Program-made: the position numbers and the translations under genes
In this document: in pieces, positions 48,570-54,103 of the stretch
How the letters are laid out: every line of letters starts with the position of its first letter
How positions within the stretch are numbered: the stretch's first letter is position 1
Notes under the pieces: model-generated
Seen by the model: the letters and a program-made list of their open reading frames with translations, nothing else
Told to the model about the DNA's origin: nothing
Database searches by the model: none
NCBI GenBank assembly: GCA_007618135.1
Contig: PHFX01000001.1
Location: 1 to 64,000 of the forward strand
Source of the DNA: Candidatus Brocadia sp. WS118
GTDB lineage: Bacteria; Planctomycetota; Brocadiia; Brocadiales; Brocadiaceae
Direction of reading: 5' to 3'
DNA: 64,000 bases

Positions 48570-50399
48570 CTATTCGTTTACCAGCTTTTTAAATTCAGGA
48601 TTTTCACCAAGGGTTACAAGATCAGGATTCTTCCTTGCTAAATCTTTGTATTGAGGATTCAACTCGACTGCTTTTTTTAGAGAAACCAAGGCATCTTCCT
48701 TATTTGAAAGCAAGGCGTATGCGCAGGCCTTATTGAACCATGCCGCATCAAAATCCGGCTTTATTTTTAAAGCCTTATCATATTCCGCTATCGCCTCCCT
48801 ATGATTTCCCATGGTATCCAATAAAAGCCCTTTATTGTTGAATGCCACAAAGAAGTCCGGTTTAACCTGGACAGCTCTGGTATACGATTCAAGCGCTTCT
48901 TGTTTTTTCCCCATTTCCTCAAACACATATCCCCTATAATTCCATGCTTCATGAACATTCCCGCTCAGTGTCGTTGCCTTATCAAAGGCTTGCAACGCTT
49001 CGGAATATTTTTTTAATTGCTTGAGAGCAAGCCCCTTATAGACCCAGACGTCAAAAGAATCAGGTTTAATATTCAGTGCCTCATCAAGCGTCTTAATCGC
49101 GCCTTCATATTTTTGAAGTTGTACGAGGGCATAACCCTTTTCTACCAGTGCCTCATTTTTGATCTTCGCCAGTCGCGGTATGTTTGCCGCTTCTTCATCG
49201 GTAACGATTTGGCACACTTTATCGAAAGCCTGCACAGCATCCGTATATTTTCCCAAACTCAACAAAGTAAATCCCTTTTTATTCCATACCTGAGGATAAT
49301 CAGGTCTTAATTTTATAGCAGCATCAAAAACCTTTATTGCATCTTCAGGCTTACCTAATTTAAACAACTCACAGCCCTTGTTCGTCATCGTTTCATATGA
49401 GTCAGGCTGTATTTTTAATGCCCTGTCATACGCCGTAACTGCTTCTGTATATTTTCCGAGACGAGACAATGCCAATCCTTTATTAGTCCATGCTCCATAA
49501 GAGTCTGGTTGAATATCTATGGTCTTTTCGTAGGCAGCAAGCGCTTCCTCATACCTGCCTAAGGCATCCAGGGCAAGCCCCTTCCCGTTCCAGGCGGCAT
49601 AAGAATCAGGTTTTAATTCAATTGCCTTGTTGAATGCATGCACAGCCCCTTCGTAATTGCCAAGGTCGGCAAGAGTAAAACCTTTATCCGCCCACGCTGC
49701 GTGTTCTGTGGGTTTTATCTCAATGGCTTTATCATAAGCCTCAACGGCCTCCTTATATTTCCGTAATCTTACATAACAGTTTCCCTTGTTTATCCACGCT
49801 TCATAATACTTTGGTTGAATAGCAATGGCCTTATCATACGCCGCCAGCGCCTCTGTTCTCCTCTCAGGGATTTTTACCAAAGCCAATCCCTTGTTATTCC
49901 ATGCTTCGTGCTCATCTGGCCGTATCTTGAGAATCCGATCATAGGTCTCAACTGCTCCCTCAATATCACCGATATGATCCTGTACATTCCCCTTGTTGTA
50001 AAGCGCCATCAGATCATCGGGTTTTATTTCCAATGCCTTGTTGACTGCCCTTATTGCTTCATCATACTTACCCGCATGGTCCAGAGATCTTCCCTTCATA
50101 TACCATGCCTCATAATATTCCGGCTTGTACTTAAGCGCTTCTTCAAACGATGCGATAGCTTCCGGATATTTGCCAAAATAATCAAGCACAACCCCTTTAC
50201 TACACCACGCCTCGGCAGAATCGGGTTTCAGCCGTATTGCATCCTCGTAAGCACCAAGGGCTTCCTGATACAGCTGCTTTCGAACGTACGCATCCCCCTC
50301 TTCCATAAACGCTTCATAATTTTCAGCGGTGTGTACTATGCCTTTTATGTTAGCAAGCAGTACGCACACCATAATTGGTACTATCATCACTTTTTTCAT
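48570..50399 (-). CDS. exported protein of about 16 tetratricopeptide repeats
   Basis: Protein of about 609 residues: signal peptide (VMIVPIMVCVLLANI), then TPR units each about 34 residues with the consensus AW-x-KG at the start of helix A and EAI/AL-x-x-Y-D-KA-I-x-I-KPD. One irregular repeat near residue 400 has a longer loop (VCQIVTDEEAANIPRL). It is a large periplasmic or surface scaffold for protein complexes; partner unknown. The start at ATG 50399 is 7 bases from AGGAGG; the preceding ATG at 50402 is 4 bases from it. Confidence 0.88.
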   Translation of the reverse strand: MKKVMIVPIMVCVLLANIKGIVHTAENYEAFMEEGDAYVRKQLYQEALGAYEDAIRLKPDSAEAWCSKGVVLDYFGKYPEAIASFEEALKYKPEYYEAWYMKGRSLDHAGKYDEAIRAVNKALEIKPDDLMALYNKGNVQDHIGDIEGAVETYDRILKIRPDEHEAWNNKGLALVKIPERRTEALAAYDKAIAIQPKYYEAWINKGNCYVRLRKYKEAVEAYDKAIEIKPTEHAAWADKGFTLADLGNYEGAVHAFNKAIELKPDSYAAWNGKGLALDALGRYEEALAAYEKTIDIQPDSYGAWTNKGLALSRLGKYTEAVTAYDRALKIQPDSYETMTNKGCELFKLGKPEDAIKVFDAAIKLRPDYPQVWNKKGFTLLSLGKYTDAVQAFDKVCQIVTDEEAANIPRLAKIKNEALVEKGYALVQLQKYEGAIKTLDEALNIKPDSFDVWVYKGLALKQLKKYSEALQAFDKATTLSGNVHEAWNYRGYVFEEMGKKQEALESYTRAVQVKPDFFVAFNNKGLLLDTMGNHREAIAEYDKALKIKPDFDAAWFNKACAYALLSNKEDALVSLKKAVELNPQYKDLARKNPDLVTLGENPEFKKLVNE

Positions 50400-50454
50400 C
50401 ATGGCTACCTCCTTTCGCTACGCACGAAATGAAAAAATTCCGCATAATATCATA

Positions 50455-50554: not shown

Positions 50555-50595
50555 CAGCAGCGAAGCCGCACCCAATTCTCCGTTGTGAAAGCGGG

Positions 50596-50626
50596 AGATT
50601 GCTTCGGAAAAGACCCTCGCAATGAC
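50596..50626 (-). repeat. family A REP-like unit, reverse
   Basis: AGATTGCTTCGG...CCTCGCAATGAC. The partner unit at 50660-50686 faces away from it, the opposite arrangement to 1097-1163 and 4710-4776. Confidence 0.8.
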
Positions 50627-50659
50627 ACAGACTATGCCTTTGATGACATATGGTGCGTT

Positions 50660-50686
50660 GTCATTGCGAGCGAAGCGAAGCAATCT
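50660..50686 (+). repeat. family A REP-like unit, forward
   Basis: GTCATTGCGAGCGAAGCGAA followed by GCAATCT, without the insert present in the longer units. Confidence 0.8.
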
Positions 50687-50732
50687 TTCTCTCATAAACC
50701 ATCTGTACCGCCTGATAAGGGATAAATAGGGT

Positions 50733-50780
50733 TGTGAAAAAACTTACAAAAAAAAGAAGTTTTTACACCGTAATACTATA
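50733..50780. repeat. repeat family F, partial copy at the PLD-like gene 3' end
   Basis: TGTGAAAAAACTTACAAAAA, GAAGTTTTTAC, TAATACTATA: same as 50505-50554 except for a few positions. It runs directly into the stop codon of the next minus-strand gene (50776). Confidence 0.7.
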
Positions 50781-52224
50781 AACCACCAAACCCTGTGTTC
50801 GATGCTTTTATCGTTATGATATCCCCGTCTTCCAAAATAAACGGCGTATTATTTCCGCGCCTTTCCACCAATTTACCGGTATAAAGTATTGTTTCACCGT
50901 CATGGAATTTTAATACTTTATCTTTTTTAGCCAAACTGATCTTTACCTCTACGTCTCCTTTTTCCTTATGCATAATTCCCATGCGCAAACCAGTAGCAAC
51001 ATTTACATTTTTATACACAATCTGTCCCGTCCAACTAACATATTTCCCCTTGTATTTCTCCCATGCAATTTCCTTTTGCGCTTCTGATACCTTACTCTCC
51101 TTGCCAAAGATACTGTCCAGATCCTCAAACGAGTCTATAAGGAATATTTTTTTTGGTCCTTGCGAAACAGGTACAACAAAAGGATCCTCAGTTAAATTGC
51201 TGCCATGCGCCGGCTTGGGAAGGGTATTCACGATTTCAAGCACATCACCATCTTCCAGTTTATACGGAAACACCCTGGTTACCCGAGAAGCAAGCTTTCC
51301 GGTATAAGTCACGGTATTACCAAGTTTCGCATGAGAAAAATGTTGCTTGTGTGCTGAATTTAATTTTATCTCAACGCTGGTATCCCCGTACTTTATACTC
51401 ATCATCCAGCCGGTAACCAGTCCCCATCCAATATATGCCACCTCTCCCTTCCATTTAACTCTTTTACCCTCACATCGACTCCACAAACTCTCTTTTTGCT
51501 CATCAGATAAGTCACTTGCCATTCCAAAGACTTTATCAAATTCTTCAAAACTCATATTGATAAACCCCTGAGCGGTCTCTGTTATAACAACCCCATAGTT
51601 CGATGCTACTACCTGACTTTCCGGTTCCAATTCTTTTGGAACAATTTCTGATATCGCTGTATCTGCAGGTCTCCCGACCTCTTTTCCTTCAATAACCGCA
51701 CGCTCTTTTCTACCCGTGGTTCCTCTCTCCTGAAATAATTGGTCAAATTTCCTTTGATACTTAACCACGAGTTTTGTTTCGTCACTAAAAATCATATCAT
51801 AACGATTATCGTTGCTAACATTTTTCCTCCAGGGATATGACCCCATAGCCAGTACCTGAGCATCAAAAATAGCAAAATTATTTTGCATGCTTTCTTTTTG
51901 AGACAAGACCTTTATTGCAAACTTCTTATCCTTGTCAAGACCCGCCAACGGTCCTTTCGTTAAGGCGTGTTTTTTACTAACGATGACCCTGACATGAACC
52001 CCCCGTTTCTGCGCCTTAACAAGGGCATTGAGAAAATCATGAGCGGTTATATCAGAAACCGCTATATCTATAGAGTCGCGGCACCCTTCAATAGCGCTTA
52101 AAATTTGCCCTTTAATCTCCTGGGATGCAAAATACACATCTGAAGAAAAGGCCCTCTCGTGCATATAAAAAAATGAAATCGATGTTGTAATAATAATAGG
52201 CCAACACACTTTCTTAAAATTCAT
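50776..52224 (-). CDS. exported degenerate-PLD protein with two OB-like repeats
   Basis: Protein of 482 residues: signal peptide (IIITTSISFFYMHERAFS), a PLD-like domain (about residues 29-165) and two tandem repeats, at about 222-331 and 361-472. The HxKx4D motif should sit at MQNNFAIFD (residues 113-121), where His is Gln, Lys is Asn and only Asp remains, so catalysis is unlikely. The repeats share SFEEFD-VFG, GK-V-W-G, a VE-IK-L strand, V-YTGKL, and LEDGD-I, a pattern like tRNA_anti-like OB folds. Function unknown. It ends in a repeat sequence. Confidence 0.75.
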   Translation of the reverse strand: MNFKKVCWPIIITTSISFFYMHERAFSSDVYFASQEIKGQILSAIEGCRDSIDIAVSDITAHDFLNALVKAQKRGVHVRVIVSKKHALTKGPLAGLDKDKKFAIKVLSQKESMQNNFAIFDAQVLAMGSYPWRKNVSNDNRYDMIFSDETKLVVKYQRKFDQLFQERGTTGRKERAVIEGKEVGRPADTAISEIVPKELEPESQVVASNYGVVITETAQGFINMSFEEFDKVFGMASDLSDEQKESLWSRCEGKRVKWKGEVAYIGWGLVTGWMMSIKYGDTSVEIKLNSAHKQHFSHAKLGNTVTYTGKLASRVTRVFPYKLEDGDVLEIVNTLPKPAHGSNLTEDPFVVPVSQGPKKIFLIDSFEDLDSIFGKESKVSEAQKEIAWEKYKGKYVSWTGQIVYKNVNVATGLRMGIMHKEKGDVEVKISLAKKDKVLKFHDGETILYTGKLVERRGNNTPFILEDGDIITIKASNTGFGGL

Positions 52225-52540: not shown

Positions 52541-54103
52541 ATGATTTACCGTTCAAAAAGATATGGTGTTTGTCTTCTTTTCATTTTTAGCTTCTGCTTT
52601 GGAATAGGTATTTGTTTGTCTCAAACCACAAAAACCTATGCCGCAAATAAGCAGGCAAGTGAAACCACTACGGAACAATTAAACACCGCACTCCATTTTG
52701 AGCATGTATTTGAAAATGTGGTTAACCAGGTTAAACCTGCCGTTGTTTCCATCACCTCGGTAAAGACCTTTAAACACAGCAAGCAAAAGCAACGGCAAAT
52801 GCCAAATGACCGGTTTCATTCTCAACCAAGACCAGGTCCGAATCAGGAACAAGAACAGGATGACGATCAGTTTCAGCAGTTCAGGGACTTTTTTGGCGAC
52901 GACTTCTTTGACCGGTTTTTCAGGCCACGATTTCCCGAAGGTGACTACAAAATACAAGGGCTTGGTTCCGGAGTAATTATTGATAGCGAAAAAGGTTACA
53001 TTATAACGAATAACCATGTTGTGGAAGATGCCGATGAGCTTAAGATTAATTTAGGTGACAAGCGTGAATTTGACGGAAAGGTCGTTGGTACCGATCCTCA
53101 AACAGATGTTGCCGTGGTAAAGATCGAAGGAAAGAACCTGCCTTCCGCGAAATTAGGAGATTCTGACACCATTCGGGTTGGACAATGGGCAATTGCCATT
53201 GGAAACCCTTTTGGCTTATCACAAACCGTTTCCATCGGTGTTATCAGCGCTACAGGGAGGGCAAATGTGGGCGTTGCAGCGTATGAAGACATGATTCAGA
53301 CAGACGCGGCCATCAATCCCGGCAATAGTGGCGGGCCCCTTGTGAATATCAAAGGCGAAATCATTGGAATCAATACCGCGATCTTTACCAGAAGTGGTGG
53401 TTATCAGGGAATCGGATTCGCGATCCCCATCAATATGGTAAAAATTATCATGAGAGACCTTGTGGAAAAGGGTAAAGTTACCCGCGGTTGGCTTGGGGTT
53501 GTTATCCAGGACATCGATCCTGCTCTGGCAAAATCATTCAACGTTACCGTTACGGAAGGCGTCCTGGTAAGTGATATTCAAGAAAATTCTCCGGCAAAAG
53601 AGGCAAGCTTTGAACGAGGTGATATTGTCATTGAATACGACGGGAAATCTATCCGGGACGTAAATCACCTCCGTAACTCAGTTGCGCAAACGGAGGTTAA
53701 TAAAAAAGTAAAGGTAAAAGTTCTGAGGGATGGCAAAGAGAAAGAATTGACCGTCAAGATTGGCGAACAGCCAGCCGATTTGTTTGCTGCCGGGCCTGGC
53801 GCTGCTCCATCCGGGAAAGATCTCGGAATGACCGTACAAAACCTCACCAAAGAACTTGCCAAAAGTCTTGGTGTTGAAGAAGATAGTGGAGTAATCGTTG
53901 CCGAGGTTCAGCCCGGCAGTCCGGCAGCTCTCTCTGAGATACGGGAAGGAGACCTCATTAAGGAAGTAAACCGGAAAAAAATTGGTAATGTTACAGAATT
54001 TAAAAAGGCTTTGAGCGAAGCAGATAAGGAAAAAGGCGTCCTGATGCTGATAAAACGAGGGGAGTTTTCACGATACGTTATTATTAAGGCGAAGGAAAAA
54101 TAA
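52541..54103 (+). CDS. periplasmic serine protease of the DegP/HtrA family
   Basis: Protein of 520 residues: signal sequence (VCLLFIFSFCFGIGICLS), a low-complexity linker (PGPNQEQEQDDDQFQQF), trypsin-like domain with His159 (NNHVVEDA), Asp189 (DPQTDVAVV) and Ser263 (INPGNSGGPL), then two PDZ domains (about 310-400 and 425-515; LGVVIQDI and LGMTVQNL start). It degrades or refolds damaged periplasmic proteins. It has its own promoter and terminator, so it is a monocistronic gene. Confidence 0.92.
   Translation: MIYRSKRYGVCLLFIFSFCFGIGICLSQTTKTYAANKQASETTTEQLNTALHFEHVFENVVNQVKPAVVSITSVKTFKHSKQKQRQMPNDRFHSQPRPGPNQEQEQDDDQFQQFRDFFGDDFFDRFFRPRFPEGDYKIQGLGSGVIIDSEKGYIITNNHVVEDADELKINLGDKREFDGKVVGTDPQTDVAVVKIEGKNLPSAKLGDSDTIRVGQWAIAIGNPFGLSQTVSIGVISATGRANVGVAAYEDMIQTDAAINPGNSGGPLVNIKGEIIGINTAIFTRSGGYQGIGFAIPINMVKIIMRDLVEKGKVTRGWLGVVIQDIDPALAKSFNVTVTEGVLVSDIQENSPAKEASFERGDIVIEYDGKSIRDVNHLRNSVAQTEVNKKVKVKVLRDGKEKELTVKIGEQPADLFAAGPGAAPSGKDLGMTVQNLTKELAKSLGVEEDSGVIVAEVQPGSPAALSEIREGDLIKEVNRKKIGNVTEFKKALSEADKEKGVLMLIKRGEFSRYVIIKAKEK

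Follow-up and report, generated by a model that had tools for sequence, protein, structure and literature searches.

A phospholipase D-like domain lacking the catalytic lysine is joined to OB-like repeats in a probably exported protein family of the Brocadiales

MAIN FINDING

Our analysis of a 64,000-nucleotide window of Candidatus Brocadia sp. WS118 (assembly GCA_007618135.1, contig PHFX01000001.1, positions 1 to 64,000) reveals a 482-residue protein in which a phospholipase D (PLD)-like domain that has lost its catalytic lysine is joined to two OB-like repeats. In everything sampled, the PLD proteins fused to an OB domain are, without exception, those that have lost the catalytic lysine. We tentatively propose, as the explanation that we favor, that the protein acts outside the cytoplasm as a pseudo-PLD/OB adaptor, in conjunction with the tetratricopeptide-repeat (TPR) protein encoded next to it. 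The constituent parts are of known kinds; what is new is the exception-free link between OB fusion and lysine loss, the order-wide distribution, and the conserved slot beside the TPR gene. Beyond what the initial annotation noted, we find conserved TPR and HtrA neighbors, a paralogue in the source genome, and an OB-only version.

RESULTS

Domain organization and probable export of the 482-residue protein

The open reading frame lies on the minus strand, the initial annotation having given no strand, and is flanked by a co-directional TPR gene and a divergent HtrA gene. The features are as follows:

50776..52224, minus strand: ATG-to-stop reading frame for the 482-residue protein ("type A"), a pseudo-PLD domain followed by two OB-like repeats, probably exported
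52141..52224, minus strand: N-terminal hydrophobic export segment, approximately residues 1–28 (from sequence and hydropathy)
51724..52137, minus strand: PLD-like domain of the NucT/Nuc-type, single-HKD kind, residues 30–167 (Pfam PLDc_2, 4.7e-15; family profile)
51862..51885, minus strand: degenerate HKD motif Q114-N-N116-FAIF-D121 (from sequence and family comparison)
51553..51723, minus strand: variable linker, residues 168–224 (type A median identity 0.34, median dN/dS 0.51)
51232..51552, minus strand: OB-like repeat 1, residues 225–331 (AlphaFold2 model of 51220–51573; Z 10.5 with 3f1z)
50809..51132, minus strand: OB-like repeat 2, residues 365–472 (37% identity to repeat 1)
50557..50781, strand unspecified: copy of a dispersed repeat, outside the protein, between the pseudo-PLD and TPR genes
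48570..50402, minus strand: TPR protein of 610 residues, downstream and co-directional (TPR_1, 9.9e-123; adjacency)
52541..54103, plus strand: Do-family (DegP/HtrA) serine endopeptidase, divergent (TIGR02037, 1.4e-150, above cut-off)

Identity to Candidatus Brocadia carolinensis is 88%; the named relatives are Candidatus Brocadia and Brocadiaceae metagenome-assembled genomes. Pfam rows for LapA, PP_kinase_C, Rep3_N, and WC-rich fell below cut-off for the 482-residue protein and were judged to be chance matches. A full-length model built from ten orthologues reached a pLDDT of 50 and was kept for strand order alone.

The exported look of the protein, remarked on in the initial annotation, extends to its family. 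In particular, a hydrophobic 12-mer is present in the 45 residues preceding the first domain in all 63 family proteins, the lowest mean 12-mer hydropathy among them (1.77) belonging to the source protein. Past that N-terminal region the most hydrophobic 19-mer in the 63 proteins reaches 1.61 at most, in a comparison whose window lengths differ (12 vs 19) and which only roughly approximates a signal-peptide prediction. The 482-residue protein is thus probably exported, and its export segment is perhaps cleaved near AFSS/D.

The catalytic lysine is absent from all PLD+OB proteins sampled

The 482-residue protein matches PLDc_2 (PF13091) with a score of 56 bits against a cut-off of 27, and its best sequence matches in the PDB are mitochondrial cardiolipin hydrolase (4ggj) and the nuclease NucT (6ehi), at 2.6e-8 each. 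It misses the NCBIfam cut-off for NucT (PRK13912; best model 50.9 vs 211 bits) and lacks the HxK(x4)D catalytic motif. Specifically, Q114-x-N116-x4-D121 takes the place of H-x-K-x4-D, in agreement with the initial annotation, which had described a dead PLD-like domain with its HKD motif reduced to Q-N...D.

To place this loss in the family, we compared 58 PLD+OB proteins, comprising 23 PLD-OB-OB proteins, 34 PLD-OB proteins, and one PLD-OB protein cut by a contig end (G308), with 21 PLD-only relatives. After removal of identical cores the full set comprises 23 PLD-OB-OB, 34 PLD-OB, 6 OB-OB-OB, and 21 PLD-only proteins. The counts omit loci L001–L009, which were left out because they are largely repeats of genomes already counted. 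The PLD-only controls are one protein from the order and the 20 best-scoring proteins from outside it, with no random draw; at most four candidates were scored per genome, and PLD-only proteins within the order, of which one is counted, are therefore under-sampled.

The catalytic lysine is missing from all 58 PLD+OB proteins, whereas every one of the 21 PLD-only relatives has it. In the PLD+OB proteins the lysine position is occupied by N, S, D, E, T, A, or G; the HKD aspartate is retained in all 58, the G-x-Y-x-W stretch in most, and the HKD histidine in 14 of 23 PLD-OB-OB and 8 of 35 PLD-OB proteins. The PLD-only proteins have both histidine and lysine in all 21 cases and an aspartate at the aligned position in 20; in the PLD-only protein of L133 the HKD aspartate lies one residue earlier. 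The source genome presents the same division: nine PLDc_2 places were found, accounting for two OB-fused proteins and six others; both OB-fused proteins are without H-x-K, while the other six keep it, three of these with the aspartate at the usual distance.

The initial annotation had raised the prospect that close homologues with a proper HKD motif would expose a local mutation; close homologues likewise lack the lysine. The loss is not local: it is old and common to the family, which suggests that an enzyme has become a protein for binding, or an adaptor. Most of the residues found at the lysine position could have arisen through an initial K-to-N change and then single-base steps to S, T, or D, and we infer a single ancestral loss. 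In the PLD tree, which is built from few columns and is not decisive, the PLD-only rows lie together to one side of a branch (94/77, 92% of bootstraps), an arrangement that allows one loss. Because 14 of the 23 type A proteins retain the histidine, some residual chemistry might persist in those 14.

Comparison of type A proteins in pairs with dS below 1.5, which are not independent of one another, gives a median dN/dS of 0.20 for the PLD domain, 0.10 for OB repeat 1, 0.16 for OB repeat 2, and 0.51 for the linker. The dead PLD domain is therefore under purifying selection, and is less constrained than the OB domains.

The C-terminal repeats are predicted to adopt an OB fold

The local alignment of repeats 1 and 2 (37% identity) scores 204, compared with a mean of 28.4 (sd 5.2, largest 58) for 2000 shuffles of repeat 2. 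Both repeats contain the motifs GK-V-W-G, YTGKL, and LEDGD-[VI], as expected from the initial annotation, which had noted two repeats of about 110 residues with a common pattern.

The AlphaFold2 model of repeat 1, folded from 20 repeat sequences of the source protein and nine relatives, has a pLDDT of 89.7 and a pTM of 0.83, and has the predicted element order of an OB fold: two leading helices, followed by b1-b2-b3-a-b4-b5. Foldseek returns 3f1z at the top (E 1.4e-4, TM 0.66), equaled in E by lysyl-tRNA synthetase (TM 0.52). VIA-align likewise places 3f1z foremost (Z 10.5 over 105 residues, 3.3 Å), followed by the OB domains of aspartyl- and asparaginyl-tRNA synthetase (Z 9 to 9.4). The entry 3f1z, which we take to belong to PF12869 (tRNA_anti-like), is titled "putative nucleic acid-binding lipoprotein". 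For repeat 2, a similar strand order is predicted in the low-confidence full-length model (pLDDT 50).

Sequence profiles place the repeats near the tRNA_anti-like family. The Pfam scan, with E up to 10, gives no PF12869 row for the 482-residue protein, and the source genome contains no tRNA_anti-like match above cut-off. Single repeats matched in 1 of 20 cases (0.0013), and 8 of 63 family members match at E 0.01. All six OB-OB-OB homologues pass the Pfam gathering score for tRNA_anti-like (2.2e-10 to 5.4e-14), and the OB-OB-OB repeat profile matches the type A repeat profile with E 1.9e-35. PDB sequence searches with the repeat profiles gave three rows, at E 0.41 or worse, in one search and none in the second. 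The initial annotation had proposed OB-like repeats and a comparison with tRNA_anti-like OB domains; the predicted fold of repeat 1 and the scores of the OB-OB-OB homologues support repeats of that kind. The converse that it had entertained, repeats that are not OB-like, is at odds with the confident model.

In a tree of 98 repeats, type A repeat 1, type A repeat 2, and the first, second, and third repeats of the OB-OB-OB proteins (genome family f3) are each set apart by a branch. Repeats 1 and 2 of f3 pair separately (100/99), and the third groups weakly with both type A repeats and the long-branched L071 (86/59). The median net charge of the type A OB repeats is −0.3 and −0.5 (23 proteins), and that of the paralogue OB domains is mildly basic (+4.6 for PLD-OB, +2.3 for OB-OB-OB); for the PLD domain the median is +5.1 in type A vs −3.8 in the PLD-only relatives.

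The family is distributed across the order

Our search covered 392 Planctomycetota genomes. PLD-OB-OB proteins occur in 23 of the 24 genomes of the source family (f1), and PLD-OB proteins in four families of the order. The repeat profile matches 36 genomes of the order, with none of the order among the non-matches listed, which are ranked by kinship, and gives no match in the two other genomes of the class. Three weak matches occur among the 356 Planctomycetota genomes outside the order; these proteins (L112–L114) combine an OB-like domain with a zinc ribbon and a single probable membrane span.

The OB part has no match at E 0.1 among plasmids and phages, and one weak relative, without a PLD domain, in a viral collection. 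This relative (L146:1-513) is a probably membrane-anchored, 170-residue protein that has the OB leader motif and lies at the edge of a viral-collection contig. The whole 482-residue protein matches 394 plasmid records, which were set aside: the 10 listed are all annotated as phospholipase D family, and the match lies within residues 9–184.

A paralogue in the same genome (G000:C91:34009-35193, L011/L012) combines a dead PLD domain (V-D-D) with one OB domain; its neighbors are presumably an NNRD-like gene and a P-II-like gene. Paralogues labeled B1 adjoin what we take to be an NNRD-like or CBS-domain gene, and most of those labeled B3 adjoin a presumed metallophosphatase-like gene. The labels B1, B2, and B3 were given by neighbors or by family of genomes, and neither B1 nor B3 forms one group in the PLD tree; L071, assigned to B3 by family of genomes alone, sits on a long branch near type A in both trees.

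A TPR gene lies beside varied combinations of PLD and OB domains

The TPR gene is downstream and co-directional at 22 of 23 PLD-OB-OB loci. At the L016 locus the PLD-OB-OB gene is present and the TPR gene is missing, so the TPR gene is not obligatory; the adjacent gene there is presumably tilS-like. The HtrA gene is divergent at 22 of 23 loci, the remaining locus stopping at a contig edge, and this neighbor is limited to the source family of genomes.

In family f3, an OB-OB-OB gene without a PLD domain precedes the TPR gene at six of six loci, and the TPR proteins are 50–54% identical to that of the source. In family f2, four PLD-OB genes lie beside a TPR gene whose product has 31–41% identity. 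The f2 TPR protein of L079 (33% over its length) has the source TPR protein as its best match in the source genome (2.7e-81, with the next place at 3.9e-54) among 42 places matched, TPR genes being common there; the f2 match of L064 spans 157 residues only, and its orthology is unsure. The other PLD-OB paralogues do not adjoin that TPR gene. An OB domain is thus able to replace the PLD domain in the TPR-adjacent slot, which argues for a binding role, and the varied PLD/OB mixtures that the slot carries fit a binding function. The TPR protein also passes NCBIfam cut-offs for MamA and others; we rejected this identity because generic TPR arrays match many such models.

Beyond the OB-OB-OB gene, five of the six f3 loci (L073, L078, L080, L081, and L082, but not L075) contain a divergent gene for a protein of 559–584 residues, which is transglutaminase-like with TPRs in L073, L078, and L082 and was judged by position and length in L080 and L081. 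Separately, at L009:3009-4023, reading frames made of the repeated unit FQSSSSPKAGC are probably a CRISPR array read as ORFs; we take an ORF beside them to be Cas2-like.

The pseudo-PLD and TPR genes are separated here by 373 bp holding the dispersed repeat, which is approximately 225 bp long and has seven further matches in the genome (approximately 195–235 bp at 88–94% identity). The corresponding locus of Candidatus Brocadia carolinensis lacks the repeat and has a gap of 50 bp. Possibly the repeat is a mobile element of the small, non-autonomous kind.

DISCUSSION

A proposed route from secreted enzyme to binding module

The mechanism that we have in mind would begin with an ancestral secreted, NucT-like PLD domain to which a tRNA_anti-like OB domain was joined no later than in the common ancestor of the order. 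The OB-joined PLD domain would then have lost its catalytic lysine, drifted at the histidine, and survived as a binding module, and the OB domain would have duplicated later, in the source family of genomes. A protein, or another ligand of the envelope, would be bound by the OB domains and by the dead cleft of the PLD domain and so be kept alongside the TPR scaffold; the divergent HtrA/DegP protease-chaperone may belong to the same pathway, one of quality control or assembly. Both the choice of protein, rather than nucleic acid, as ligand and the partnership with the TPR and HtrA proteins are putative. Weighing against the partnership are the L016 locus without a TPR gene, the 373-bp gap with its dispersed repeat, the abundance of TPR genes in the source genome, the other PLD-OB paralogues that lie elsewhere, and the restriction of the HtrA neighbor to one family of genomes.

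A nucleic-acid-binding envelope protein, a possibility that the initial annotation had raised together with binding of an acidic polymer, would be a former secreted nuclease that grips extracellular DNA or RNA through its dead PLD cleft and OB domains; it is rather unlikely in our estimate. The near-zero net charge of the type A OB domains, the probable export of the protein, and the replaceability of its PLD domain by an OB domain all tell against this idea, even though the ancestor was NucT-like, the type A PLD domain (+5.1) and the paralogue OB domains (+4.6, +2.3) are mildly basic, and the nearest solved OB structure, 3f1z, is titled as nucleic acid-binding and is followed by the anticodon-binding OB domains of tRNA synthetases. 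Nor does the open-access literature found for tRNA_anti-like give a function; in passages of PMC8284424 it appears as a gene name. Somewhat less probable again is a binder of cell-envelope lipid or polysaccharide, whose dead PLD cleft would retain a ligand site of the phosphoester type. The PLD superfamily acts on phosphodiesters, the closest solved sequences are cardiolipin hydrolase and NucT, and probable export, the aspartate kept in 58 of 58 proteins, and the G-x-Y-x-W stretch kept in most would all suit such a ligand; but the active-site lysine is gone from all 58 and the histidine is variable, and the classical phosphate site is therefore broken.

We regard as improbable a pseudo-subunit that heterodimerizes with an active PLD nuclease and regulates it. 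Single-HKD Nuc dimerizes, as quoted in a passage of PMC6008594, and the source genome encodes PLD-like proteins with intact motifs (e.g. L137), but the neighborhood showed no further PLD gene, and the OB-only version holds the same slot without any PLD domain. That the protein is a decaying, functionless remnant is scarcely credible: the lost HKD motif and drifting histidine would be expected of decay, but all except one of the 24 genomes in its family carry the protein, which has median dN/dS values of 0.10–0.20 across its three domains and keeps its synteny.

Returning to the adaptor that we favor, a broader and more doubtful form of the proposal is that the proteins constitute an order-wide exported adaptor family, built from a former secreted PLD nuclease and OB domains, that would serve envelope assembly or quality control together with the TPR scaffold and, in some genomes, HtrA. 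If this is true, the exchange of the PLD domain for extra OB domains in one family would mean that what the slot requires is binding modules rather than catalysis. Among bacteria the family is a clear example of a former enzyme domain that has become a fixed module without catalysis, and it points to an uncharacterized, probably exported TPR/OB/HtrA gene set in an anammox order with an unusual cell plan.

Comparison with known systems

The PLD domain resembles NucT/Nuc (PLDc_2) in being homologous over its length, in following an N-terminal hydrophobic segment, and in keeping the HKD aspartate; it differs in lacking the catalytic lysine, in its changed histidine, and in its fusion to OB domains. 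The OB repeats share with the tRNA_anti-like family, and with the Klebsiella pneumoniae lipoprotein 3f1z, an OB fold with leading helices, but the Pfam model does not report the source protein, and here the OB domain is repeated and fused to a dead PLD domain. The anchored OB proteins L112–L114 and L146 have the same OB leader and strand motifs as the pseudo-PLD family, but similarity is weak, and they have a membrane anchor and no PLD domain; L146 scores 21.5 bits with tRNA_anti-like, for which the cut-off is 23.5.

The initial annotation had regarded the architecture as undescribed, and no pseudo-PLD and OB architecture of this kind appears among the open-access literature matches listed, which in one search were 8 of 1,065. 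CoCoNuT restriction systems use both OB folds and PLD nucleases, according to passages of PMC11090510, but are intracellular helicase/GTPase systems whose PLD domains are described as nucleases; those passages mention no exported dead PLD domain with a tRNA_anti-like OB domain.

For the OB half, a closer precedent is wolframin, a protein with TPR-like Sel1 repeats, whose lumenal OB domain is argued in passages of PMC7016017 to bind protein and not nucleic acid. Five of the six OB-OB-OB homologues pass the whole-protein cut-off for this domain (WCOB), with no single stretch passing alone, and the Pfam scan gives no WCOB row for the 482-residue protein; the relation is likely one of shared OB superfamily only.

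For the PLD half, the precedent is FAM83 (SACK1, DUF1669), a family of vertebrate scaffolds. As passages of PMC6008594 describe, its pseudo-PLD domains are protein-binding anchors that bind CK1, and they likewise keep the HKD aspartate, which is needed for this binding. FAM83 loses the histidine and, in the same passages, seemingly keeps a basic residue at the lysine position, whereas here the lysine is always lost and the histidine varies; the parallel is one of outcome only. The Pfam scan gives no SACK1 row for the 482-residue protein. SACK1 matches occur in 32 of 63 family members, but we rejected them as evidence of a scaffold family, since the match is generic, being no less frequent in HKD-bearing controls (17 of 21). 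By analogy, the precedents for both halves, FAM83 and wolframin, are protein-binding, which would count in favor of an adaptor.
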